From the IMG/VR virus record IMGVR_UViG_3300007351_000003, positions 1 to 64,000 of that record: a stretch of 64,000 bases of DNA. One strand, 5' to 3'. The position numbers were made by a program, and so were the translations under genes. Every line of letters begins with the position of its first letter. The stretch's first letter is position 1. Under the pieces are notes generated by a model, which saw nothing but the letters and a program-made list of their open reading frames with translations, did not search any database and was not told the origin of the DNA. The stretch comes from a virus. This document shows positions 13,303 through 48,283 of the stretch, one piece after another.

Positions 13303-13674
13303 CTAAAATGTTCCATCGAGGATCCAGTCCTCGAGGCGCTCCAAAACATCATTGCTTGTATGCCCGTCCCATGCGGGAGCGAACTTCTTTTCTTCGATTC
13401 CATGCAGCATGTGATACATCGATTCCGGGAGGTGATAGGTAATATCGCCTTTCGGCGTCCGCATGCCGGCTATGAACCAGCCCTCATGAAAACTGCCATC
13501 GTTATGCCGGAGTGACCGCCAGGACATCAACGGGTGGCTTTTCATCAGCGCGATGAAGATCAGGCACCTGTGCTGATAGAGTTCGCGGAACGTATGGCAT
13601 CCGTCCGAGACGTCCTGAGCATCGCCGACGACCTTCACCTGCTCGCCGTCAGGCATGAAAATCGTGTCGTTCAT
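13303..13674 (-). CDS. WDGH-domain phage protein
   Basis: A 123-residue protein with the family marks SDGCHTFRELYQHR near the start, WRSLRHNDGS and GWFIAGM in the middle, and WDGHTSNDVLERL near the end. The family is widespread in phages and its function is unknown. The start overlaps the stop of the upstream peptidase-like gene by four bases, so the genes are coupled. Confidence 0.9.
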   Translation of the reverse strand: MNDTIFMPDGEQVKVVGDAQDVSDGCHTFRELYQHRCLIFIALMKSHPLMSWRSLRHNDGSFHEGWFIAGMRTPKGDITYHLPESMYHMLHGIEEKKFAPAWDGHTSNDVLERLEDWILDGTF

Positions 13675-14102
13675 TCTGCGGTTACCGTGTCGACACCGAG
13701 ACCAGTGTAGAGATCAAGCCGTGAGGCGATTTCGATCGCCTGCTCTGCTGTGGCGCCCATCTCCATTGCGGCCAGCGCGTAATCGGAGCCAGAACCGATA
13801 GCCCAAAACGGTTTGTTTATCTTTATAGGGAAAAGACCCATTTCATAACGATAAATCTCTTCGTTTTCTATAATGATCCCGACAAACCCTTGGTCTTTTT
13901 CCATTGAGGGTTTCTTATCGTTAGGTCGTCCTTCCTGAATCCAGTCAAAAAATCGTTGCGTATTATCAAATCCGCCCGACCATCCGCAAAGCAATGCGCC
14001 TATCTTGTGTATCTTTATTCCAGGAACGGGAGTCCCTCCGACATCAAACAACTTGTCTCCCGCTAATATTTTTTCATCCTTGCGATACGCAATAGTCGTC
14101 AT
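13671..14102 (-). CDS. proteasome/HslV-like Ntn-hydrolase
   Basis: A 143-residue protein when started at the ATG at 14102, which overlaps the upstream TGA (ATGA). That start gives MTTIAYR, so removal of Met would expose Thr1, as in HslV and proteasome beta subunits. Further marks are ILAGDK after the first strand, KIHKIG with Lys, a central LLCGWSGGFDNTQRFFDW block, and AIGSGSDYALAAMEMGATAEQAIEIASRLD near the C-terminus, all typical of the HslV fold. A GTG three codons upstream would bury the Thr. It may be a phage protease for capsid or host proteins; no cognate ATPase is nearby. Confidence 0.85.
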   Translation of the reverse strand: MTTIAYRKDEKILAGDKLFDVGGTPVPGIKIHKIGALLCGWSGGFDNTQRFFDWIQEGRPNDKKPSMEKDQGFVGIIIENEEIYRYEMGLFPIKINKPFWAIGSGSDYALAAMEMGATAEQAIEIASRLDLYTGLGVDTVTAE

Positions 14103-14305
14103 AACAGCCACAAATCCTTTCTTGATTCAGTTTTATTGCATCGCTGGCACTTCCAAACCGACCGCATGCCGCCGCTGTACATTATTTGGTCTCCATACAG
14201 GTTGTAAGCATGCTTCCAAACATGCCCCTCTTGAAAACAGGTGACCCGATCAGCCAGCCATCTAAGGTTTGCCTTGACCAGATTTATCACCCTGCCCAAT
14301 CGCAT
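14099..14305 (-). CDS. small zinc-binding phage protein (DUF1660-like)
   Basis: A 68-residue basic protein with a Cys-His pair (TCFQEGHVW) and a C-terminal KCQRCNKTE, suggesting a small zinc knuckle. The pattern GHVW, G-x-x-SVW-C-x-x-C is that of short prophage proteins of the DUF1660 type. Its stop is coupled to the HslV-like gene by ATGA overlap. Function unknown. Confidence 0.75.
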   Translation of the reverse strand: MRLGRVINLVKANLRWLADRVTCFQEGHVWKHAYNLYGDQIMYSGGMRSVWKCQRCNKTESRKDLWLL

Positions 14306-16051: not shown

Positions 16052-17365
16052 CTATGCGATCGTGATGCCGGTGGCGTTTTGGTTCAGAATTCGCGCGGTG
16101 AACGCACCAGTATGGTTGTCCGCACCGGCACCGCCACGGGTGATCGCAACCTTAATGGTGAATGTATTGGGATCGCCCACGGCGCCAGCAATGGCGCTGG
16201 CCGTTACAACAACGCTGGTGATCGCCTGACCGCCTGCGACGTTTGCAGCCGCACCGCCAATCGCCGACGAGACAGTGGCGACGGCATTGACGCCCGCCGT
16301 ACGCACAACAACGATCTGGTACTTTGAGTTGCGTGTCGCTTCACCCGCACCGATTGCGCCGCCCGCACCGAGTACCCCAAGGCAATCGACCTCGATGACT
16401 GCCGCATGCGCGGCGTTCGGGATCGTCACGGTAAACACGTCCTTCGCCACCGTGTCGCTGAACGCCGTGATTGCCTTGGTGAGTTCTGTCTGGACTGCGG
16501 CTCCGCCGGGGACGCCGGTTCCGCCGATGGTCCGGGACGTTGTTGCGCGAAGCGTATCCACGGCCTTGTTTGCATCAGCCACGACGGTTTTGGCTGCTAT
16601 GACCGTTCCGCCCGTCACGCCTGCGTTGACGTTCAGTTCTGCGGCCGTGGCTGTAACTGATGTTCCGGCACCAGCTCCGAGTTTCAGATCGGCAACGGCC
16701 AGCACGTCCACGTTCTTGTCTGCGCCGAGAGCAAGCGCTTTGCTTGCCACTGCTGTACCGGCAACCGATCCGTCGAGCAAGTTCAGTTCAGCCGCCGAAG
16801 CGGTCAGGCCGGTGATGGTGTCGGTTGCGGCTGATACATACCACAGGGTTGCAGACCGGCAGACGAATATTGCCATCTGGCCGGCGGTGATGGTGAACGC
16901 ATTGCCAGCGCCGAGAGCGTTGATCTGCGTACCCGCAGCATCCGGGTAAACCGGGAGGGCATTGCTTGCGTTGGAATTGATAACCATGACGATTTTGTTT
17001 ACAGCGGGAACGGGGAGAGAGACCGCCTTGGTGCCATCTGCGCCCGTAACGACCGTGGTATCTGCCGTGATATCCGCTGCAGTTGCAAGGCTGTTACCCG
17101 TTGCCGCTAGGGTCGCCGTGGTTCCGGTTTCCGCCGACGTGAACGTGCAGGACGTAATTGAACCTGTGTTGACGTAGACATTGCCCGTTGCAGTATCGAT
17201 CATCTGGCAGCCAACCGCATAACCTGCCAATGCGCTCGGCAAGGTCGTACATGTGCCCAAAAGCACATTCTGGTACTTATCGCGTATATAAACCGATACC
17301 GTTGAGTGACCGTTCGGGAGACCGTCAACCGTGATAACATTTCCTCTGAATTCATTTCTCTGCAT
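16052..17365 (-). CDS. head decoration or fibre-like virion protein
   Basis: A 437-residue Ala/Thr/Val-rich protein with strong start GCAGGAGGAACATCATG. It contains the phage structural motif ITGLTASAAELNLLDGS and a second copy (SVTATAAELNVNAGV), found in many phage decoration and fibre proteins. Beta-rich, without enzyme signature. It directly follows the decoration-like gene downstream of the major capsid gene, so a head fibre or decoration role is likely. Confidence 0.75.
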   Translation of the reverse strand: MQRNEFRGNVITVDGLPNGHSTVSVYIRDKYQNVLLGTCTTLPSALAGYAVGCQMIDTATGNVYVNTGSITSCTFTSAETGTTATLAATGNSLATAADITADTTVVTGADGTKAVSLPVPAVNKIVMVINSNASNALPVYPDAAGTQINALGAGNAFTITAGQMAIFVCRSATLWYVSAATDTITGLTASAAELNLLDGSVAGTAVASKALALGADKNVDVLAVADLKLGAGAGTSVTATAAELNVNAGVTGGTVIAAKTVVADANKAVDTLRATTSRTIGGTGVPGGAAVQTELTKAITAFSDTVAKDVFTVTIPNAAHAAVIEVDCLGVLGAGGAIGAGEATRNSKYQIVVVRTAGVNAVATVSSAIGGAAANVAGGQAITSVVVTASAIAGAVGDPNTFTIKVAITRGGAGADNHTGAFTARILNQNATGITIA

Positions 17366-17461: not shown

Positions 17462-18010
17462 TTAGTCGTTGAAGTCTACGATCTCGGCAATAACGTCGAT
17501 CACGACGGCACCAGCCGGGTTGGTAACCGTAACAAACGCAAGGTCGATGGTGTCGTCGGCAGCGTAATACTTGCCGCCCGAGGTAATGTACGCATCGGTT
17601 CCGTCAATGCCGTAGGTCCGGGTGCCAGCGGCGCCTTTGAGACTCATTGCGGCGTCAAAACTGGATGCGCCGTCGCCGTCGCCGATATTTGCCGTCAGAG
17701 CATCGCCGGTTGTAGGGGTTACCATGATGATATGAACCTGTTTCACCAGCCAACCTGCCTTAACGTTCAAAATCTTCACGATATCGGAAGCAACCTGCAG
17801 GGCAAGCGGGATCGTGATACGCTTGCGGATGCGGGTAGTCTTTCCGATCGCATTGGCCGGGTAACCCGTCTGGCTGTCCGTCAGGTCCGTGGTGGTAACG
17901 CCGAACAGCCCGAACGCAAGCGCCGGGGTGAGCGCGCCGAAGCTGGCCATGACCGCGACTACCGCGACGAATGCCAGCGCAAACTTGTGTTTCAAAATGA
18001 ATTTCTTCAT
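17462..18010 (-). CDS. capsid-decoration-like protein with N-terminal signal-like peptide
   Basis: A 182-residue protein, start ATG behind AGAGGAGACCAGGAC, so the N-terminus is secure. It begins MKKFILKHKFALAFVAVVAV and continues to a TPALA-FG site: basic n-region, hydrophobic h-region and an A-x-A type signal peptidase site near residue 32. The remaining 150 residues are beta-rich, with IPLALQVASDIVKILNVKAG, TANIGDGDGASSFDA and DDTIDLAFVT marks of small phage decoration proteins. It lies directly downstream of the major capsid gene. An export-type leader on a virion protein is odd; see findings. Confidence 0.75.
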   Translation of the reverse strand: MKKFILKHKFALAFVAVVAVMASFGALTPALAFGLFGVTTTDLTDSQTGYPANAIGKTTRIRKRITIPLALQVASDIVKILNVKAGWLVKQVHIIMVTPTTGDALTANIGDGDGASSFDAAMSLKGAAGTRTYGIDGTDAYITSGGKYYAADDTIDLAFVTVTNPAGAVVIDVIAEIVDFND

Positions 18011-18093
18011 GTCCTGGTCTCCTCTCTGCTTGAGAGATTTACCCGGCCCGGAGGCCGGGGTTAATGGTTATTGCCAAAAATCAACGGTTACGA

Positions 18094-19167
18094 TTAGCCC
18101 AGGCGAGCGTACAGGACGCCCAAGGATTCCGTCTTGATCACCTTCCAGTCGAAGACCTGGATACCGCGCATACCCTTGCCGGCCGTGTTTTCGAACTTAT
18201 CGAAATAGGTCATGTCGGTCAGCTGGGCCGCAAACGTCACGCCGGACTTGTGGCCGAACGTGATGTTGTAGCAGGAGTAGGTATCCGAAACCGCGGTGTA
18301 AAGGTTTGAGATGTAAAGGTCGAAATCGTACAGGCTCTTGAAGTACCCGCCGCTCACCATGAACGAAGAGGCGGCGCCGGTCACACCGACGTCCTTCAGT
18401 TCCGAGGTGTCGAGCAGATACTTCGCCCAGGTCGGAAGGACCATCCAGCGGCCTTCCTTGGGCCAGTTCTGCTCGTTCGCCACGGCCGCGCACTCGGCGA
18501 TCTTGTCCGTGATATTGCCCTTGGTCAGGGGGATGGATGAGCCCGTGGTGCCGAGGTTGTAGGAACCGCTTTTACCGGCGGTCGTGCCCTGGTTGTCAGC
18601 ATGCGCTTCGAGGTACACATCGGCCAGGAAGTCGGTATCGATGGCGATACGCATCTTCTCGCCGCCATGCTTGGTGTACTTGTCGAGGGTGCCCTTGTCG
18701 CCCAGCTGCGCGAGGGTCACATCATCTAGGCGGAGAGCGAAATATTTCGATCGGTCGACCTTGAGTTCAACCTTCCCGCCGGCCAGCACCTGCCAGTTGA
18801 TCGTGCCGTTTACCTCGTAATTCGAGATGTCGATGTCGGGCAGGGTGTTGATGACAACGGTATCGCCCTTCTTCTTGATCATGCCCTCATAGTCGCTATT
18901 GGCCACAAACGGCGCAACGCTGACGTCGTAGAACACTTCCACGGTCTTGTCCGCGAACAGGACCGGGATCTCACCAGAGCCGGAAGCATAGGTGTAGTCC
19001 GGGGAGCCGGGGGCGCCTGCGACAGTGCCGAACAGAAGGGGCAAGCCGAGACCGAACAGTGCGGTGGAGGCATCAGCCGTACCGCAGATACCGAGCGCAT
19101 AGAGCGCAAGTACAACTCCGAGCACGACAAGGTTGATCGTGCTGATTTTTTTGATAAACTTTTTCAC
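18094..19167 (-). CDS. major capsid protein with signal-like hydrophobic N-terminus
   Basis: A 357-residue protein starting at GTG with TAGGAGAA seven bases upstream. Residues about 60-357 carry marks of P22-type and related coat proteins (VELKVDRSKYFALRLDDVTLAQLG, AIDTDFLADVYLEAHADNQG, and a C-terminal FDWKVIKTESLGVLYARLG). It follows the scaffold-like gene with 11 bases between them, the usual scaffold-coat order. Residues 1-52 are unusual: MKKFIKKIS is followed by two hydrophobic stretches (INLVVLGVVLALYALGICG and ALFGLGLPLLFGTVAG) that look like a signal peptide or membrane anchor rather than a coat-protein arm. Confidence 0.85.
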   Translation of the reverse strand: MKKFIKKISTINLVVLGVVLALYALGICGTADASTALFGLGLPLLFGTVAGAPGSPDYTYASGSGEIPVLFADKTVEVFYDVSVAPFVANSDYEGMIKKKGDTVVINTLPDIDISNYEVNGTINWQVLAGGKVELKVDRSKYFALRLDDVTLAQLGDKGTLDKYTKHGGEKMRIAIDTDFLADVYLEAHADNQGTTAGKSGSYNLGTTGSSIPLTKGNITDKIAECAAVANEQNWPKEGRWMVLPTWAKYLLDTSELKDVGVTGAASSFMVSGGYFKSLYDFDLYISNLYTAVSDTYSCYNITFGHKSGVTFAAQLTDMTYFDKFENTAGKGMRGIQVFDWKVIKTESLGVLYARLG

Positions 19168-19178
19168 TTTGGGTTCTC

Positions 19179-20348
19179 CTAACCCCTAATCCTCCCTTCT
19201 GCGCGTGCCAATGCGAATTCATCAGACCAGTGCTGTTTTTCCTTCGCCAACTTTGCGGCTTCCTCCGCAGTCTTTCCGATCACGTTGTAGTAGCCGCTTC
19301 TGATCTTTTTGTTATGCGCATCTACGTCAGCTTGGGAGTAGATGGGTTTTTTGTTGGTATTCAGGTCCCCTGCACCCGTCTGAGAAGCGGGCATCAGGTG
19401 ACTTGGTTTTTTGTTTGGGTCTGCGACAGCCAGTGCTGCCTTGCCTTTCCATTCGACGAAAGACCTGTAGACTTCCGCCATTGTTACCGAATCTTTTGCC
19501 GCATGTGCTTCTTCCGCGATCTCCCGGATAGGTCTTTTGGTGCCCGCATCGATCATGGCCAGAAATTCAGGGAACTTCGGATTATTTACGATCGACAGCC
19601 TGACTGCCTCGCCTCCAACCAGTGCGTCCAGCGTTTCTATATACGAGGGGTCAACGCTTGGTGCCGCTGGTGCAGGTGGTGCTGCAGGTTGTGCCGGTGT
19701 TGCATGCACGGGAGCAGGAGCAGGTTGTTCTGCAGGCTTGGGGACCGTGGCAAGAACGGCGTCCACAATGGATTGTCTCCATGTGGCTACCTTTGCCGGG
19801 TCGGCTCCAAGTTCATCAGCCCAGTCCTTGTCGGCTTCGGTAATGGTTGCCTTCGTTACGTCTGCCTGTGCGGACTGAGGTTTCGCCTTCAACTCTGCTA
19901 TCTGTTTCTCGAGGTCGGAGACCGATGCTTTTAGCCGGTCATTCTCGGCCTTGAGTTCCCCTGTATTGGCGATTTGCCTTTTCAGGTCGGCGTTTTCCTT
20001 CATGAGCGGCTGGACTTCAGAGTTGTATTTCCCCTGAAGGATTCTGAGTGCCGCTGCCTGCCGGGTGATCGTGTCTACGGGGGATTCGCCCATCTTTGCG
20101 CCCTGGTCGTCCTTGGGAGCAGGTTCCGGGGTAATCGTGCCGCTGACCGGTGGTTTCGGTTCTGCGGGTGCCGGAGGAGCGGGTTGAGGTGCTGCCGGAG
20201 GAGTTGCCGGAGGCGGTTCTACGGGAGCCGGGGGAGCCGGTGGGGTATTCCCTGGCGGTGTTCCTGCATTCGCTTCAGCAATCTTCTTCTCGTTTTCCTC
20301 AATGCGCTTCTTAATGTGTTGCGGTAACGCTGCTTTCGGTGCTGGCAT
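19179..20348 (-). CDS. putative capsid scaffold protein
   Basis: A 389-residue protein from the ATG at 20348, which has AAGGAGACAGTCAGT upstream; a longer frame would run into the terminator hairpins. Residues about 20-90 are Pro/Ala-rich and disordered, residues about 110-170 form a coiled coil (ENADLKRQIANTGELKAEND and following), then a second Pro/Ala linker and a helical C-terminus (SQADVDAHNKKIRSG, EEAAKLAKEKQHW). This layout and its place immediately before the major capsid gene fit a scaffold. No protease motif seen. Confidence 0.8.
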   Translation of the reverse strand: MPAPKAALPQHIKKRIEENEKKIAEANAGTPPGNTPPAPPAPVEPPPATPPAAPQPAPPAPAEPKPPVSGTITPEPAPKDDQGAKMGESPVDTITRQAAALRILQGKYNSEVQPLMKENADLKRQIANTGELKAENDRLKASVSDLEKQIAELKAKPQSAQADVTKATITEADKDWADELGADPAKVATWRQSIVDAVLATVPKPAEQPAPAPVHATPAQPAAPPAPAAPSVDPSYIETLDALVGGEAVRLSIVNNPKFPEFLAMIDAGTKRPIREIAEEAHAAKDSVTMAEVYRSFVEWKGKAALAVADPNKKPSHLMPASQTGAGDLNTNKKPIYSQADVDAHNKKIRSGYYNVIGKTAEEAAKLAKEKQHWSDEFALARAEGRIRG

Positions 20349-20471
20349 ACTGACTGTCTCCTTCTGCGATCCCTTTCGGGTGTTCGCTACGACGCAGAGC
20401 CCGTCAGGGTGTTCTGCGTTAAAATTGGTTCCCGCCGAGCCCGGAGGTCCAGGTATTCGGTCGAGAGAAAA

Positions 20472-20523
20472 CAAAAAAAGGCCGGACAGAAAGAAACCCT
20501 TTCGGGAATCCTTCCATCCGGCC
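20472..20523 (-). terminator. intrinsic terminator or attenuator before the scaffold gene
   Basis: On the minus strand, GGCCGGA (20523-20517) pairs with TCCGGCC (20486-20480), with an inner CCC-GAAA-GGG hairpin, followed by seven T. It lies about 125 bases ahead of the scaffold ATG, so it would act as an attenuator unless read-through occurs. Confidence 0.75.
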
Positions 20524-27690: not shown

Positions 27691-27921
27691 TTAAACCCAA
27701 ACGATATTTATTCCCAAAACGGTTGTAATGCCTGCCTCAAACTGCTCGCGAAAATGCCGTTTTGATAATTTGACATACCTTCCTGCGCGAGGCATGCCTT
27801 TGCTATCGGCGTGTTTTACCCGTGGTAACATAATTTCAACCAGCGGCATTACAAGACGCACTTTCTCGTCGATCTCGCAAAGGGTACGCTCTAAGATTTC
27901 CATCCGGTCAAGAGTTGTCAT
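27691..27921 (-). CDS. small hypothetical protein
   Basis: A 76-residue protein (MTTLDRMEILERTLCEID) with an amphipathic N-terminal helix and a basic middle (GRYVKLSKRHFREQF). It overlaps the preceding Tat-signal gene by four bases and stops 20 bases before the portal ATG. Function unknown. Confidence 0.7.
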   Translation of the reverse strand: MTTLDRMEILERTLCEIDEKVRLVMPLVEIMLPRVKHADSKGMPRAGRYVKLSKRHFREQFEAGITTVLGINIVWV

Positions 27922-28229
27922 GCGTTCCCCTCATACTTCATCTTGAAACGAATTCGTGCATGTTCCGCAACTAACTCTCTCCAATTTGCAGGCGGTTCTG
28001 GCATTTCGTGCTTTAAAGCAAAGTAACAGGATTCGCCGTTCTTGTGCGTTGCCAGTCCACGGGTACCGTAACCGAAAGTCTCGAGTCTGAACGTTTCTAC
28101 ATAAAACACTGTAAACTCTTCAGGCTTTTCCTCTCTCCACCCAAGGGCTGGGACAGTGGGAACAGTAACCGCAACGACTGCACCTATCATTGCTTTCAGG
28201 AAGCCACGTCTTGAAATGTCATTCATCAT
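27918..28229 (-). CDS. protein with twin-arginine (Tat) signal peptide
   Basis: A 103-residue protein started at the ATG at 28229 (or 28226), which overlaps the upstream stop and has AAGGGG upstream. The N-terminus holds SRRGFLKAM, an exact Tat consensus (S-R-R-x-F-L-K), then a hydrophobic stretch (IGAVVAVTVPTVPALG) with a likely cleavage site after ALG. The mature part, about 70 residues, is polar with aromatic residues (FTVFYVETFRLETFGYG) and one Cys. A longer frame upstream is just the neighbour in another frame. A Tat-exported phage protein beside the portal gene is unusual. Confidence 0.75.
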   Translation of the reverse strand: MMNDISRRGFLKAMIGAVVAVTVPTVPALGWREEKPEEFTVFYVETFRLETFGYGTRGLATHKNGESCYFALKHEMPEPPANWRELVAEHARIRFKMKYEGNA

Positions 28230-37827: not shown

Positions 37828-39216
37828 TCAATGCCCTCCGTATTTTTTTTCTGCGTTTTCGAACCGTGTGAACCTGTTCAGGAAAGTGAGATCCACCTTC
37901 CCAATGGGCCCGTTTCTCTGCTTCCCAATGATAACTTCTGCCCGGCCGCGCCTTTCACAAAGGCATTCACCGTCAATAGGACATTCACACTTGTTGTATA
38001 CTTCGGCCCGGTAAATAAACAGGATCACGTCTGCGTCTTGCTCTATGGCTCCGGATTCTCTCAGGTCGGCAAGCATGGGCCGCTTTTCCTTCCCCGGCCT
38101 GTTTTCCACTGCTCGGTTCAACTGGGAGAGCGCTATCACCGGTGTTTTCAGTTCCTTTGCCAGCGCCTTGAGTGATCGTGATATGTTTGATATTTCCTGT
38201 TCTCGGCTGCCCTCATTCCCCTTCCCGCGCATCAGCTGCAGGTAATCCACAATAACCAAGTCCAGCCCCTGATCCGCTTTTAATCTCCTTGCTTTTGCGC
38301 GCAGTTCGAGGGAGGAAATAGCTGCCGTATCATCGATATAAATTTCCGCATCCGACATTGTGCCGGCTGCATGGGAAAGGGGAGACCAGTCGCGTTCTGC
38401 CAATTGCCCGGTCCGGATTCGGTGCGCGTCCACCCTTGCCTGTGACCCCAGCATGCGAAGCACCAACTGCTCTTTCGACATTTCCAAACTGAACACTGCT
38501 ACCTTCTGCCTTTTCTCGATTGCTGCATATTCAGCAATATTGAGAGCGAATGCGGTCTTTCCCATGGACGGTCGGCCAGCAATAATAATCAAATCGCTCG
38601 GCTGGAGGCCAGACAGCATGTCATCAAGATCCACAAACCCGGTTGCCACCCCAGTGATCTTCTCTTTTCTTTCATACAACCTCTCAATCATCCCAAAGCT
38701 ATCCCCCACGATCTGGCGCATGGGGGAAAATGAATCCTGAGTCTTCTTTTGGGCTATTGTGAATATCTTCTCTTCTGCTTGATCCAGAAGTTCGTCAATA
38801 CTCATTGTGCGGGCATCGTCGTAACTCTGGGTGATGATGTCGGTAGCGGAGTGGATCAGTTGGCGCAGGACCGATTTTTCGCGTACAATCCGGGCGTGGT
38901 TTTTAATGTTCGCGGCAGTTGGGACCAAACTGACTAGAAACGCAAGATATGAGGCTCCGTCCACCTGTTCAAGGCCCACCTTGCCGCGGATCGCATCCGG
39001 GAGTGTAACCAGGTCAATTACTTCCCCACCCTCATACATTTCCGCCATGACACTATAGATTCTACGATGGGAGTCTTTATAAAAATCATCGGCGGTCAGA
39101 AGGTCGACAACATTTTCTATTGCGGAATTTTCAATGAGTATGGCGCCCAGCACCATCTGTTCGGCTTCAAGGTTTTGCGGCGGCAGTTTCTGAAGGCTGA
39201 TTTCACTTTGCGACAT
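37828..39216 (-). CDS. dnaB: replicative DNA helicase (DnaB family)
   Basis: A 462-residue hexameric 5'-3' helicase. N-terminal DnaB_N domain (QNLEAEQMVLGAILIENSAI), then RecA-like core: Walker A RPSMGKTAFAL, motif II VIVDYLQLMRG, ALSQLNRAVENRP and the arginine-finger region near RESGAIEQDADVI, ending in KQRNGPIGKVDLTF. It works with the initiator gene immediately upstream; their frames overlap by 14 bases. Confidence 0.95.
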   Translation of the reverse strand: MSQSEISLQKLPPQNLEAEQMVLGAILIENSAIENVVDLLTADDFYKDSHRRIYSVMAEMYEGGEVIDLVTLPDAIRGKVGLEQVDGASYLAFLVSLVPTAANIKNHARIVREKSVLRQLIHSATDIITQSYDDARTMSIDELLDQAEEKIFTIAQKKTQDSFSPMRQIVGDSFGMIERLYERKEKITGVATGFVDLDDMLSGLQPSDLIIIAGRPSMGKTAFALNIAEYAAIEKRQKVAVFSLEMSKEQLVLRMLGSQARVDAHRIRTGQLAERDWSPLSHAAGTMSDAEIYIDDTAAISSLELRAKARRLKADQGLDLVIVDYLQLMRGKGNEGSREQEISNISRSLKALAKELKTPVIALSQLNRAVENRPGKEKRPMLADLRESGAIEQDADVILFIYRAEVYNKCECPIDGECLCERRGRAEVIIGKQRNGPIGKVDLTFLNRFTRFENAEKKYGGH

Positions 39217-40348
39217 TGAATATCTCCATTTCTTTTGCTTTATATAATCGCTGTAGTTCCGTCCACTTCATGCCGAATTTTTTAAATTCTGTGTTTGCCT
39301 CATCCGACATAACTGGTTGGCTGGTGTAGTTTACATTGTCCAATTCTTTGGCGAGTTCTTCTTGTGCGGCATTATATGTATTGCCCTCGGGCTTTTTGGG
39401 CTCCTGCCATTCCACCCAATCCTGCCAGTTATTGAACCAAGTGGATCCGTTTTTTGGTTTCTTCCATGCATTTTCCTTCATGGCAAGGTGCGTGATGTAG
39501 TTGTCAAGTGCCTTATCAATCTTGGCCAATTCATCCAGGGTGTTTACTGTAGCCTTAAAATGGCGTAATGCCTCTTTTTTACCATCCTTGTTGGGGTACC
39601 GGTTCCATCGGACCATAAATTCATTTTCATGATTAATCGACTTTTCTTTTGTAGTTTCTTTTGTAGAGTTTTCTTTTGTATGTCCTGTTTTCGGTAATGA
39701 CTCTTTACCTTTTTCGGTAACACTCATTTCCTTTTTCGGTAAGGCCGTGCTTTTTCTTTTTTCGGTAATCATACTTCGCAAAAAAGTTGACATGGCTGTC
39801 CTATTAGTGTGTGACTTCCCGTGACAACTTTTACATAATGTGATTAAATTATCATCCGTGTTATTTGTCTGATTAAAATCAATATGATGGACAGGTAAAA
39901 ATTCTTTCGTAATATGCCCTTCATATCCACAAACCATACACGCGTTACCATCGGTCACCCTTATCTTGTTTTTTATTTCTGTTATACTTACACGTCCTTT
40001 TAATATTTCCTTTTTCGGTAATGGTTTCCATGTATGAAAATCTTTATTGAAACAGTATGTTGAACACCATCCGTTTCCTTTTTCGGTAACGTTGTTTCCT
40101 TTTTTGGTAATAAGATTCATCGAAGTCAATTTATTGATGGCTTGGCACACCCGTGTCTTTGACATGCCCGTACCATCTACAAATTGAGAAAGGGAAATAT
40201 CATCTTCCTTTTTGTGCCATCCATATGTTTTCCTGAAAATGAAATCGAGAACTTGACGCGCTTCTCCAGGTATTCTTGTTTTGGCGAGCGCATCCATTAT
40301 TTCATTTGCAATATCTGTATGGCCGTTTTCTGCTTGTGGATTTGCCAA
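39203..40348 (-). CDS. replication initiator (lambda O-like) with embedded HNH domain
   Basis: A 381-residue protein from a TTG start (GAGAGGTAGAAATT upstream). Residues 7-80 match the phage replication O N-terminal domain (NGHTDIANEIMDALAKTRIP, winged helix with SKTRVCQAINKL). Residues about 137-180 are an HNH nuclease (CMVCGYEGH, VHHIDFNQ, CKSCHGK). Residues about 240-325 carry the helical C-terminal part (FMVRWNRYPNKDGKKEALRH). The nuclease sits in the linker, which also contains seven DNA repeats used in two reading frames. Followed by DnaB. Confidence 0.85.
   Translation of the reverse strand: MANPQAENGHTDIANEIMDALAKTRIPGEARQVLDFIFRKTYGWHKKEDDISLSQFVDGTGMSKTRVCQAINKLTSMNLITKKGNNVTEKGNGWCSTYCFNKDFHTWKPLPKKEILKGRVSITEIKNKIRVTDGNACMVCGYEGHITKEFLPVHHIDFNQTNNTDDNLITLCKSCHGKSHTNRTAMSTFLRSMITEKRKSTALPKKEMSVTEKGKESLPKTGHTKENSTKETTKEKSINHENEFMVRWNRYPNKDGKKEALRHFKATVNTLDELAKIDKALDNYITHLAMKENAWKKPKNGSTWFNNWQDWVEWQEPKKPEGNTYNAAQEELAKELDNVNYTSQPVMSDEANTEFKKFGMKWTELQRLYKAKEMEIFNVAK
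39685..40110. repeat. seven iterons inside the initiator gene (candidate replication origin)
   Basis: Plus-strand copies of CCTTTTTCGGTAA or close variants start at 39685, 39708, 39730, 39756, 40009, 40077 and 40098. Adjacent spacing is 21-26 bases, about two helical turns. On the minus strand the repeat encodes LPKK/LPKT in one frame and VTEKG/ITEKR/ITKKG in another, so the conserved feature is the DNA, not the peptide. Lambda-like phages place origin iterons inside the O gene. Confidence 0.8.
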
Positions 40349-45292: not shown

Positions 45293-48283
45293 CTATGCGT
45301 GGGCATAAACCGCATGATTGGCGTAATTTGCCTTCACCAGTGCTGCCGCGATCCCTGGGCATACCGAATTACCGCACAGTCTTACCTGTGCTGTTTTGGT
45401 GAATGGCTTACCGTGCATATCGTGCTCGATAATATAGGTGTCGTAGAATCCCTGAGCACGGAATATTTCGCGTGGCGCGAGCATGCGGAGACCTATATCA
45501 ATGATTTGGTAGTCTTCCCCGTGGACCTTTACTAAACCGAAACGATCTCTTGTTGAAATTGTATTAATTGGCTTCCGTATGTCATGGGATTCACTGGCTG
45601 CATGGTATTGCAAGAGGAATGCCCGGACTTCTCCGAAGTGAAGGCCGCCAGCCGTGATTGTCTGCAGCGGTTCACGTGAGTCCTGACCGATATTCGTACC
45701 CTTGAGCTTAACCAAGTGTGACGTTACAAGGCTGTCTTTGTCACGTTGAGTAACCGTCCGCACTGGTTCGTCGGCAGCATATCCTATGCTCGATCCCATG
45801 TATCGAACAAGACTCGCGGCTACCAGGGAATGATGGTCTACTGACGTGACCGTGCCGAGCGGCATTTCAACCTGCGAGCCCACGACTCCGCCGTAGTGTT
45901 TGGCGAGGAAGGCAGAAACGAGGGCATGCCTTTGAGTTGCGGTAATTGTTGGTAGTGGATCATCGACAGGATGGCAACGGTCCTCGTCACCTTTTGAAGA
46001 ATAGAGTGAAGACAAAACAGGAGATACCAGCGCCAGCTCTCCCCGGTGCGCAGCGGTTATCGTCGGAAATGGGTCTTTAATATCATTGGTCCTATCGCCT
46101 CCCTGATGGGTCAGTGGAATAAGATGTGGCATGACGAGTGCGCTGTCTGCCTTTGCCGTAACCGTTGCAACAGGTTCCTCTATATGCCTCGGCCTTGACT
46201 GTCCTGCCCGTCCGCCAACTCCTATTATATGGGGCGCAACGAGCGCAAAGTGTCCGCCCTTTGTCTCCGCACAGATAGTTCTGAGCGGTTCATCAATGGG
46301 CATAGAACGCGGCGATGATCCGTTGGCGTGCTCAGTAATATACGGGACTACCAGTCCGTGCCGGTTCTCCGTAGTTTGCGTTGCCAGCGGATCGCCAACA
46401 GATTGCCCGCGGAACTCTCCGCCCTTATCGCCATAGTACGTCACGATAAACGGCTCAGTCGAATCTGTGACATACCGCTTAATACCCATGGCAATGCGGC
46501 GTTGCGTGGCTTCGGCCAGCGGTTTCTTGCGCTCGAATATAGACGGCGCGGGAATATCCCATTGGATGCACTCGGCCGCAGTTCTCCAAGGCAGGAGTTT
46601 TCCACTCTTTACGGCTGCGCTTTTCGGGTCACCATGTGTCGGCTCGGGCCACACAATAGGCTGTCCGTCTGAGCGGGCAATGAGAAAGAGACGCTTCCGG
46701 ATGGTCGGGTCGCCATAATCACAAGCCCTGAGCATTTTATGGTCAACTTCGTAACCATTTTTACGGAGGGCATTGAGAAACGAACGGAAGGTTCGGCCCT
46801 TGCGTTTCGGACACGGGTACTGCTTGCCGTCCGTTTTGGTGATCAGCGGTCCCCAAGTGATGAATTCCTCGACGTTCTCGAGCATGATTACCCGTGGTTT
46901 TACCGTAGCAGCCCAGCGGAGAACTACCCAGGCAAGCCCACGGATCTTCTTACTGACAGGTTTCGTGCCCTTGGCCTTAGAGAAATGTTTGCAATTATGA
47001 ACGACAATACCTTCAACAATGTAGCTTTCATCGTCCTCGACGCCAATATTAAAAACATCGGTTTCAACAACTGCGGGTTCCTGGCTACGAATAGGACACC
47101 ACTCAAGGCCACTCTCGGCAATAGTTTGACTATGACCATCAACAATATTTTCTCGCCATCGAAGCAGGTAAATTGGCCTCGCGTTGACAATTCGGCCTTG
47201 AATTTCATTGCTGTTTTGTAAAAGATGAACTGTGACTGTTTTCCCAAGAGAATTCAGGAGGGCTTTGATTCCGAAAGCGAGGTGTTTGGATACCGTGCGG
47301 CATTCGGTAAATTGTTTTCCTGCCCATCCATCCGCAGAAAGGTATCCGTCAAGCAAAGACTGTTTAAAGGCTGGTCCGATACCGAGTGCCCAAGCTGGAA
47401 TTCGTTTTGACTCGGCCCTGTGCCCAAAGTGTTCTCGTAACCATTCCACTAAACCACGGTGGTTTGTACTGAATTGATATGCTGTACCAGTCTCCCGCTC
47501 GTGCCACGCCAACTCATTAAAACCGGCACGTTCTCCTTCACGCATCCATGTGTTGATTGTCTGGCGAAGTTTTTCTACCTCATGCTTACCGCAGGTGAGA
47601 ACCAATTCAGCGCGTGTATCTGTGAGGCGTGTCCAGCCGTCTCCAAGGTAACGACCAACAAGCCACATAAAGCGGTTGTCTGCAACCATGCCGCGACCCA
47701 ACACAGGAGGTATTGTTGACGCCGGGAAGGTCGTAGGAGTTGCCCAATACCACCCTTTTGTGAGAAGCGATGCTGGTGCCCAGCCAGCGTCTCCCAGAAC
47801 ACGCCCATATCCTCGAGGTTCGGTACACCATACGCTTTTACGATGACGAACATAGAATGGATGCTCAGGACTCACAAGTAACCCGGGATGCCCATGTCCC
47901 TTAATTGACATCAACGGCTTGCGTGTATGAGATACCTCTGTTACCCGTCCCCAACGCAGTTTATGTGTGAGTACTTCATCGCCAACTTCGATTTCTTCAA
48001 TGGCTTGATAGCCCCGGCGCGTGAGTACCAGTGTTCCTGCCGGGAAACAGTCCGGGCTGAACCATGCCAGGCCGACGGGCCTGCCGGCGCATTCAACCAT
48101 CGGGTTGACTTTCCACACGTCTTCCCGGAGATGCTTTGTGAACGGGTGATTTACCTGATGCATCCGGATCGCGTCCGCATCGTGGTTTACAGCGATATCG
48201 ATCGGGCGCCCAAGGGCCCGCTCTATCCCCGTTGATGCTCCGCCGCCGCCCGCAAAATTATCGACTACGATTTCTCCTGTCAT
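45293..48283 (-). CDS. cytosine-C5 DNA methyltransferase interrupted by an intein
   Basis: A 996-residue precursor. N-extein: motif I VDNFAGGGGASTGIERALG. The intein is residues 79-430. C-extein: CKHFSKAKG supplies the catalytic Cys (the SPD-C motif IV), LENVEEF is motif VI-like, CDYGDPTIRKRLFL is motif VIII and RLCGNSVCPGIAAAL is motif X. Residues about 630-920 hold nine repeats of about 30-40 residues with D/E-P-x-x-T-x-x-A and LV/VP text, in place of a usual target-recognition domain. ATG start. The enzyme should be inactive until the intein splices out. Confidence 0.9.
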   Translation of the reverse strand: MTGEIVVDNFAGGGGASTGIERALGRPIDIAVNHDADAIRMHQVNHPFTKHLREDVWKVNPMVECAGRPVGLAWFSPDCFPAGTLVLTRRGYQAIEEIEVGDEVLTHKLRWGRVTEVSHTRKPLMSIKGHGHPGLLVSPEHPFYVRHRKSVWCTEPRGYGRVLGDAGWAPASLLTKGWYWATPTTFPASTIPPVLGRGMVADNRFMWLVGRYLGDGWTRLTDTRAELVLTCGKHEVEKLRQTINTWMREGERAGFNELAWHERETGTAYQFSTNHRGLVEWLREHFGHRAESKRIPAWALGIGPAFKQSLLDGYLSADGWAGKQFTECRTVSKHLAFGIKALLNSLGKTVTVHLLQNSNEIQGRIVNARPIYLLRWRENIVDGHSQTIAESGLEWCPIRSQEPAVVETDVFNIGVEDDESYIVEGIVVHNCKHFSKAKGTKPVSKKIRGLAWVVLRWAATVKPRVIMLENVEEFITWGPLITKTDGKQYPCPKRKGRTFRSFLNALRKNGYEVDHKMLRACDYGDPTIRKRLFLIARSDGQPIVWPEPTHGDPKSAAVKSGKLLPWRTAAECIQWDIPAPSIFERKKPLAEATQRRIAMGIKRYVTDSTEPFIVTYYGDKGGEFRGQSVGDPLATQTTENRHGLVVPYITEHANGSSPRSMPIDEPLRTICAETKGGHFALVAPHIIGVGGRAGQSRPRHIEEPVATVTAKADSALVMPHLIPLTHQGGDRTNDIKDPFPTITAAHRGELALVSPVLSSLYSSKGDEDRCHPVDDPLPTITATQRHALVSAFLAKHYGGVVGSQVEMPLGTVTSVDHHSLVAASLVRYMGSSIGYAADEPVRTVTQRDKDSLVTSHLVKLKGTNIGQDSREPLQTITAGGLHFGEVRAFLLQYHAASESHDIRKPINTISTRDRFGLVKVHGEDYQIIDIGLRMLAPREIFRAQGFYDTYIIEHDMHGKPFTKTAQVRLCGNSVCPGIAAALVKANYANHAVYAHA
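45524..46396 (-). repeat. nine-unit repeat region in the C5 methyltransferase
   Basis: Encodes nine related units of about 30-40 residues (for example DEPLRTI, EEPVATVTA, DDPLPTITA, EMPLGTVTS, DEPVRTVTQ, REPLQTITA), each followed by a short hydrophobic segment such as ALVMPHL. It lies between motif VIII and motif X, where the target-recognition region should be. Confidence 0.75.
46994..48049 (-). mobile_element. LAGLIDADG intein within the C5 methyltransferase
   Basis: Residues 79-430 of the precursor. Splice block A is CFPAGTLVLTRRGYQAIEEI, block B VSPEHPFYV, block F DVFNIGVEDDESYIV, block G EGIVVHN followed by Cys+1. The homing endonuclease part has two LAGLIDADG-type helices (WLVGRYLGDGW and LLDGYLSADGW). 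The +1 residue is also the methyltransferase catalytic cysteine. Confidence 0.9.

Follow-up and report, generated by a model that had tools for sequence, protein, structure and literature searches.

Membrane contact in the assembly of known phage heads

Head assembly of the HK97 type is viewed as a cytoplasmic process, in which the membrane is contacted via the portal at most. To our knowledge, the coat protein of T4 has no membrane segment, and it is the portal that serves as the anchor. A major coat that is made with a signal peptide and inserted into the membrane before assembly is found in the filamentous phage M13 (pVIII). The pVIII protein is, however, an unrelated, small helical coat that is assembled by extrusion, as opposed to the icosahedral HK97-type head considered here.

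In T4, the prohead starts to form at the inner membrane (portal gp20, gp40, YidC; PMC9958956). Head assembly at the inner membrane is also what we propose below, with the difference that the anchor would be the coat instead of the portal. In an engineered T7, the PhoE signal peptide was fused to gp10A, and the resulting phage is viable and picks up phospholipid (PMC5157022). Like the phages of this study, it bears a signal-type leader on the major coat of a tailed phage; its leader is man-made, whereas the one described here is natural, is found in two lineages and is accompanied by a signal on the neighbouring gene. In the literature we found no natural signal peptide or N-terminal membrane segment on a tailed-phage capsid or virion protein, the engineered T7 being the only case.

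The coats of phrog_267, among them those of Rhizobium phage RHph_TM3_14A, of Che8 (gp6, PDB 8e16) and of Pseudomonas and Halomonadaceae prophages, resemble the coat of the present phage from about residue 62 on, and many leaderless relatives share the gene order of the leader-bearing phages, a scaffold-like gene followed by the coat. The coats just named nevertheless have a short, mostly polar arm, and none has the hydrophobic leader of 45-52 residues that marks the leader-bearing phages. The other relevant group is that of the Ig-like trimeric cement proteins of Ralstonia phage GP4 (gp1), cyanophage Pam1 and KHP30, which bind the outer capsid surface (PMC9698820) and are the best structural matches of a 182-residue protein whose gene adjoins the coat. 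GP4 gp1 was traced from Ala2 and a signal peptide is not mentioned (PMC9698820), in contrast to the leader on the cement-like protein described here.

The coat protein and its leader

The window, by which we mean the whole stretch of DNA analysed here (bases 1-64,000 of an 83,217-bp virus record), carries on its minus strand a gene with a GTG start for a coat protein of 357 residues (18094..19167), with AGGAG 8 nt before the GTG (ribosome-binding region 19174..19182, minus strand). In profile searches the protein matches the phrog_267 major head protein (E=1.2e-29, residues 62-353) and, in the PDB, Che8 gp6 (8e16, 1e-37); by tblastn it matches the major capsid protein of RHph_TM3_14A (2e-46) as well as marine podophage coats. 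The top Foldseek matches of its model (pLDDT 79) are phage major capsid proteins and encapsulins (E 4e-12 to 1e-8, TM 0.4-0.5; 8e16 at 3.6e-12). By family profile and predicted fold, then, the protein is an HK97-fold major capsid protein. It is encoded in a single copy, and the 83-kb record holds no second, leaderless coat gene.

The original prediction was that this coat and the protein encoded next to it both start like exported proteins. This is borne out: both N-termini are rich in lysine and strongly hydrophobic, have good ribosome sites and lie where they had been placed. The coat begins VKKFIKKISTINLVVLGVVLALYALGICGTADASTALFGLGLPLLFGTVAGAPGSPDYTY, and its leader (residues 1-52; 19012..19167, minus strand) consists of a basic n-region and two hydrophobic segments, residues 10-28, which are transmembrane-like, and residues 35-53, with the short polar turn GTADAS between them. 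Leaders were scored by simple hydropathy (octanol sums) together with the (-3,-1) rule; the 19-residue Wimley-White octanol sums of the two segments are -6.7 and -3.3. In the AlphaFold model, a low-confidence linker (residues 28-64) lies between the leader helix and the body.

Of the 106 genes called mechanically in the window, the coat and its neighbour have the strongest basic-plus-hydrophobic N-termini. An equally strong stretch is held by 5.5% of the open start-codon segments of the window, and a single leader-like stretch by itself is not beyond chance. What is beyond chance is the recurrence of the coat leader in seven phages, as an extension found in no leaderless relative.

The cement-like protein and the surrounding head genes

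The neighbouring gene (17462..18010, minus strand; ATG start, with AGAGGAGACC upstream) encodes the 182-residue protein, which has no family match in profile searches. Its AlphaFold model (pLDDT 68) has its best PDB matches in the GP4 capsid (chain J, 5.8e-4), Pam1 (chain H, 1.1e-3) and the KHP30 cement protein (2.8e-3). Since these are all Ig-like cement proteins of the outer surface, the label of decoration protein given in the original prediction is reasonable but unproven: the predicted fold looks cement-like, with matches of the strength just quoted to a model of that confidence. The protein begins MKKFILKHKFALAFVAVVAVMASFGALTPALA followed by FGLFG, and its first 32 residues (17915..18010, minus strand) resemble a signal peptide, with the n-region MKKFILKHK, the h-region FALAFVAVVAVMASFGAL and a predicted cleavage at ALA/FG (the slash marks the cleavage point), where A-L-A satisfies the (-3,-1) rule; the model places a helix at residues 5-23 within this leader. 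The leader is thus predicted to be a cleavable Sec signal peptide of the signal peptidase I type, of which it bears all the sequence marks.

The remainder of the region is that of an ordinary head module, as judged from a scaffold-like ORF, an SU10-type adaptor and a portal/head-tail-adaptor-like protein near the coat, the latter two recognized by profile matches. The scaffold-like coiled-coil protein (19179..20474, minus strand) is encoded immediately before the coat and has a weak match to Pfam Phage_scaffold (E=0.0081, below cut-off); in L015, L019, L041 and L042 an analogous ORF, proline-rich and coiled-coil, stands before the coat. After the cement-like gene comes a repetitive protein of 437 residues (16052..17365, minus strand), an order that is kept in L006, where a relative of the cement-like protein (66% identical) directly follows the coat. 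Neither the scaffold-like nor the repetitive protein has a signal leader, and the portal and the terminase have none either.

Some other genes of the window deserve a mention. Near the portal-like gene, a 103-residue protein (27918-28229) carries what resembles a twin-arginine signal (SRRGFLKAMIGAVVAV); its Pfam match to TAT_signal (E=0.0014) is below cut-off. A DNA methyltransferase of 996 residues (45293-48283) has its methyltransferase matches on either side of residues 76-436; these residues match a profile of a ribonucleotide-reductase family and may be an intein or another insertion. In a single ORF at 39203-40348, a Replication protein O-type domain is followed by an HNH endonuclease domain.

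Distribution and evolution of the coat leader

About 120 distinct coats were read, at loci from viral and cellular collections. The leader is present in only seven uncultured tailed phages (that of the window, L006, L015, L019, L041, L042 and L121) and absent from more than 110 homologous coats, which begin with short, mostly polar arms (MAGPTRAAGHP, MAFPVGTPW), just as the original prediction had supposed for HK97-fold coats in general. The protein families are known ones; we found no HK97-type major coat with a natural membrane leader, either among isolates or in the literature, and the best isolate coats (RHph_TM3_14A, HMO-2011, HTVC115P, MQM1, CHOED and MaAM05) are all without it. Alignments of the homologous coats with that of the window phage set in at about residue 46-67 of the latter, and the homologous coats begin 30-55 residues later, approximately at the leader end, which makes the leader an added segment. 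From the start to the conserved N-x-D-Y-E-G motif there are 28-59 residues in the leaderless coats whose start is readable, compared with 83-91 in the five leader coats measured (window, L006, L015, L019 and L042; L041 is of equal length by inspection). The closest leaderless coat, that of L016, begins MPIARSADNPAVYG at the very position at which its leader-bearing sister coats read ISADNPAVYG, a contrast that speaks for a discrete leader having been gained or lost rather than for a different protein. In L121, and in the near-identical L122, the same leader sits on a 5' coat exon that is severed by a LAGLIDADG-bearing insert.

At L121 3816-5898 (also in L122) and L004 1-4161, the coat gene is interrupted, within or next to the NTDYEG motif, by a homing-endonuclease insert, with LAGLIDADG ORFs at L121 4159-5073 and L004 1136-2125. 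The L004 coat also holds a group I intron (RF00028, 3051-3886).

Homologues that start well downstream had been regarded beforehand as telling against the leader. Nearly all of them do start at the leader end; the leader stands all the same, because the leader-bearing relatives keep both the leader and its own ribosome site, and because the L042 coat has no ATG, GTG or TTG anywhere between codons 2 and 75, so that its leader must be translated. The other leader-bearing coats have no start with a ribosome site at the start of the body. A mis-called coat start is ruled out by the ribosome sites of the leaders and the lack of an internal start in L042.

In the coat tree, the leader falls into two separate supported clades, one of the window phage and L006 and the other of L015, L019, L041 and L042, which L121 joins in a second tree. 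At least two leader changes are forced by this tree, and a single clade is weakly rejected (AU test, p=0.027). The leaders of the two clades share a residual similarity when composition and block structure are controlled for (block-permutation p=0.0002), so that the leader may have been transferred, or may be ancient with later losses.

The leaders are only 26-41% identical, compared with 70-89% for the coat bodies, and in most pairs it is the third codon positions of the leader that vary most. Hydrophobicity is retained nevertheless: the best 19-residue octanol sum is between -5.8 and -11.0 in all seven coats, so that segment 1 scores as transmembrane throughout. Judged from these sequences, fast divergence with hydrophobicity kept is the pattern of a targeting signal, not that of a domain that contacts the lattice. 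The second segment is of membrane grade only in the window phage (-3.3) and L006 (-7.1), and a hairpin is therefore proposed for their lineage only. With sums of +2 to +4, segment 2 of the L015 lineage is too polar for a hairpin, and either the topology would differ between the lineages or the leader would be cleaved. Candidate cleavage sites are ADA/S and TVA/G in the two-segment leaders of the window phage and L006, and ISA/DN, at the body start, in the coats of the L015 lineage (ITG/DN in L121).

Pairing with a predicted signal peptide downstream of the coat

Of the 120 distinct genes that follow a coat directly, 8 have signal-peptide-like starts. They accompany six of the seven leader-bearing coats (L041 is without that gene) and only two of about 113 leaderless ones (L022 and L054), a co-occurrence with a Fisher p of 5e-8, uncorrected for relatedness. 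Each of these eight leaders conforms to the (-3,-1) rule and has Ala at -1. In the two exceptions, the gene that follows the coat has a signal peptide although the coat itself is leaderless (L022 5004-5414, L054 1843-2232), which means that the two leaders are not strictly coupled. No homology was detected between the cement-like protein of the window clade and the next-gene protein of the L015 clade, so the pairing is not the simple inheritance of one cement gene; the L015-lineage protein has an FCCH domain, and its cement role is putative. A need for disulfide bonds was considered as a reason for export and rejected: the window protein is without cysteine, and the others have none in the mature part except for a single one in L019.

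A proposed membrane-docked coat and its alternatives

Taken together, these observations suggest that the heads may be built from parts that are first sent to the cell membrane. The reading that we prefer, with a probability of roughly 0.4, is that membrane-targeting leaders were added to an ordinary HK97-type head module, such that the coat would be docked at the membrane and its neighbour exported. The host SRP/Sec/YidC route would direct the nascent coat and cement-like chains to the inner membrane, where host signal peptidase I would cut the cement-like protein after ALA32. The leader would hold the coat at the membrane; in the phage of the window it would most likely form a hairpin of two helices, so that the capsid domain would stay on the cytoplasmic side, beside the scaffold, portal and terminase. 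Head assembly would then be membrane-associated and, in spirit, like that of the T4 prohead, with the coat itself as the anchor. The cut cement-like protein would end up beyond the membrane and, being on its far side, could join the heads only once the membranes open at lysis, unless its processing is incomplete. This export away from cytoplasmic heads is mechanistically awkward and counts against the membrane-targeting reading. A more far-reaching version, in which the coat is a membrane-targeted precursor, the outer head proteins (in relatives, tail proteins too) are Sec-exported, and the virions are put together at the inner membrane or across it, are completed at lysis and may carry host lipid, is tentative and rather doubtful.

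An unlikely alternative is that the leaders remain part of the virion proteins, where they would attract phospholipids of the host and make the tailed-phage head a naturally lipid-dressed or lipid-associated one. It is compatible with the coat and cement-like leaders alike, and the T7 with the PhoE-signal coat assembles, has a normal burst size and contains phospholipid (PMC5157022); a coat-borne signal peptide therefore need not force export and can bind lipid. What it fits less well are the next-gene leaders, all eight of which end in near-canonical signal-peptidase sites, and the position of the cement N-terminus in KHP30 and Pam1 at the trimer/MCP interface (PMC9698820), where an extra hydrophobic helix would be poorly accommodated.

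The position of the coat leader is that of the delta-domain of HK97, and the low-confidence linker to the body in the AlphaFold model is in keeping with an assembly leader, a hydrophobic analogue of that domain, that would be cut by a phage protease at maturation, the cement leader being independent. We consider this improbable. A scaffold-like gene lies separately before the coat, the leader of about 52 residues is hydrophobic and not a polar, scaffold-like domain, domains with a specific assembly role usually show more conservation than 26-41%, and the paired signal on the next gene is left unexplained. The window phage does encode, downstream of the head genes, an HslV-like peptidase of the proteasome fold (13671-14111; phrog_1040, E=2.8e-34), which would suit such a maturation step. 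A search of the other leader-bearing records (mostly fragments, with the 55-kb L042 included) did not turn up this gene, and the peptidase was rejected as the leader protease, having been found in the window phage alone. No head protease was found among ten structural-region proteins scanned, and no phage-encoded signal peptidase (PF10502) in 11 records.

Alternatively, the virion may be made in two compartments: the outer parts (the cement and, in some relatives, tail-fibre-like proteins) would be exported on purpose and join at lysis, and the coat leader would be a weaker by-product of shared module evolution. Such a reading, which we regard as equally improbable, draws on the textbook signal peptides of fibre- or spike-like genes of 335-720 residues near the coat in L012, L016, L019, L042, L070, L078 and L088, and on the next-gene signals of L022 and L054, which occur with no coat leader. 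It leaves the coat leader itself, present in all seven phages, unexplained, and the fibre-like assignments rest on size and position alone. Genes of this kind near the coat include L016 3267+, L019 5835-7988 and L042 10896+, and their signal peptides suggest that exported virion-type proteins may be commoner in the family of the window phage.

It is very unlikely that the leaders are neutral or unused, either with the true start downstream or as an N-terminal extension tolerated as drift. The downstream starts of the homologues, the fast evolution of the leader, and the chance occurrence of transmembrane-like stretches in about 5% of the open segments of the window speak for it. Yet every leader has its own ribosome site, L042 offers no internal start, hydrophobicity is kept across seven phages in two lineages, and the leaders of the two lineages retain the residual similarity described above. 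Finally, that the leaders are docked in the membrane for host takeover (Sec jamming, holding of lysis proteins, superinfection exclusion) and not for head assembly is most improbable, since a dedicated small protein would be cheaper, even if high-copy late proteins with signal sequences might be inferred to load the translocon.

Implications

When genes of uncultured phages are annotated, a signal peptide on a virion protein should be retained and not trimmed away to match homologues. For the phages themselves, a natural membrane leader on the coat together with a signal peptide on its neighbour, in two lineages, points to another site of assembly or to a lipid-associated head. If true, this would be a head-assembly route new for HK97-fold viruses.
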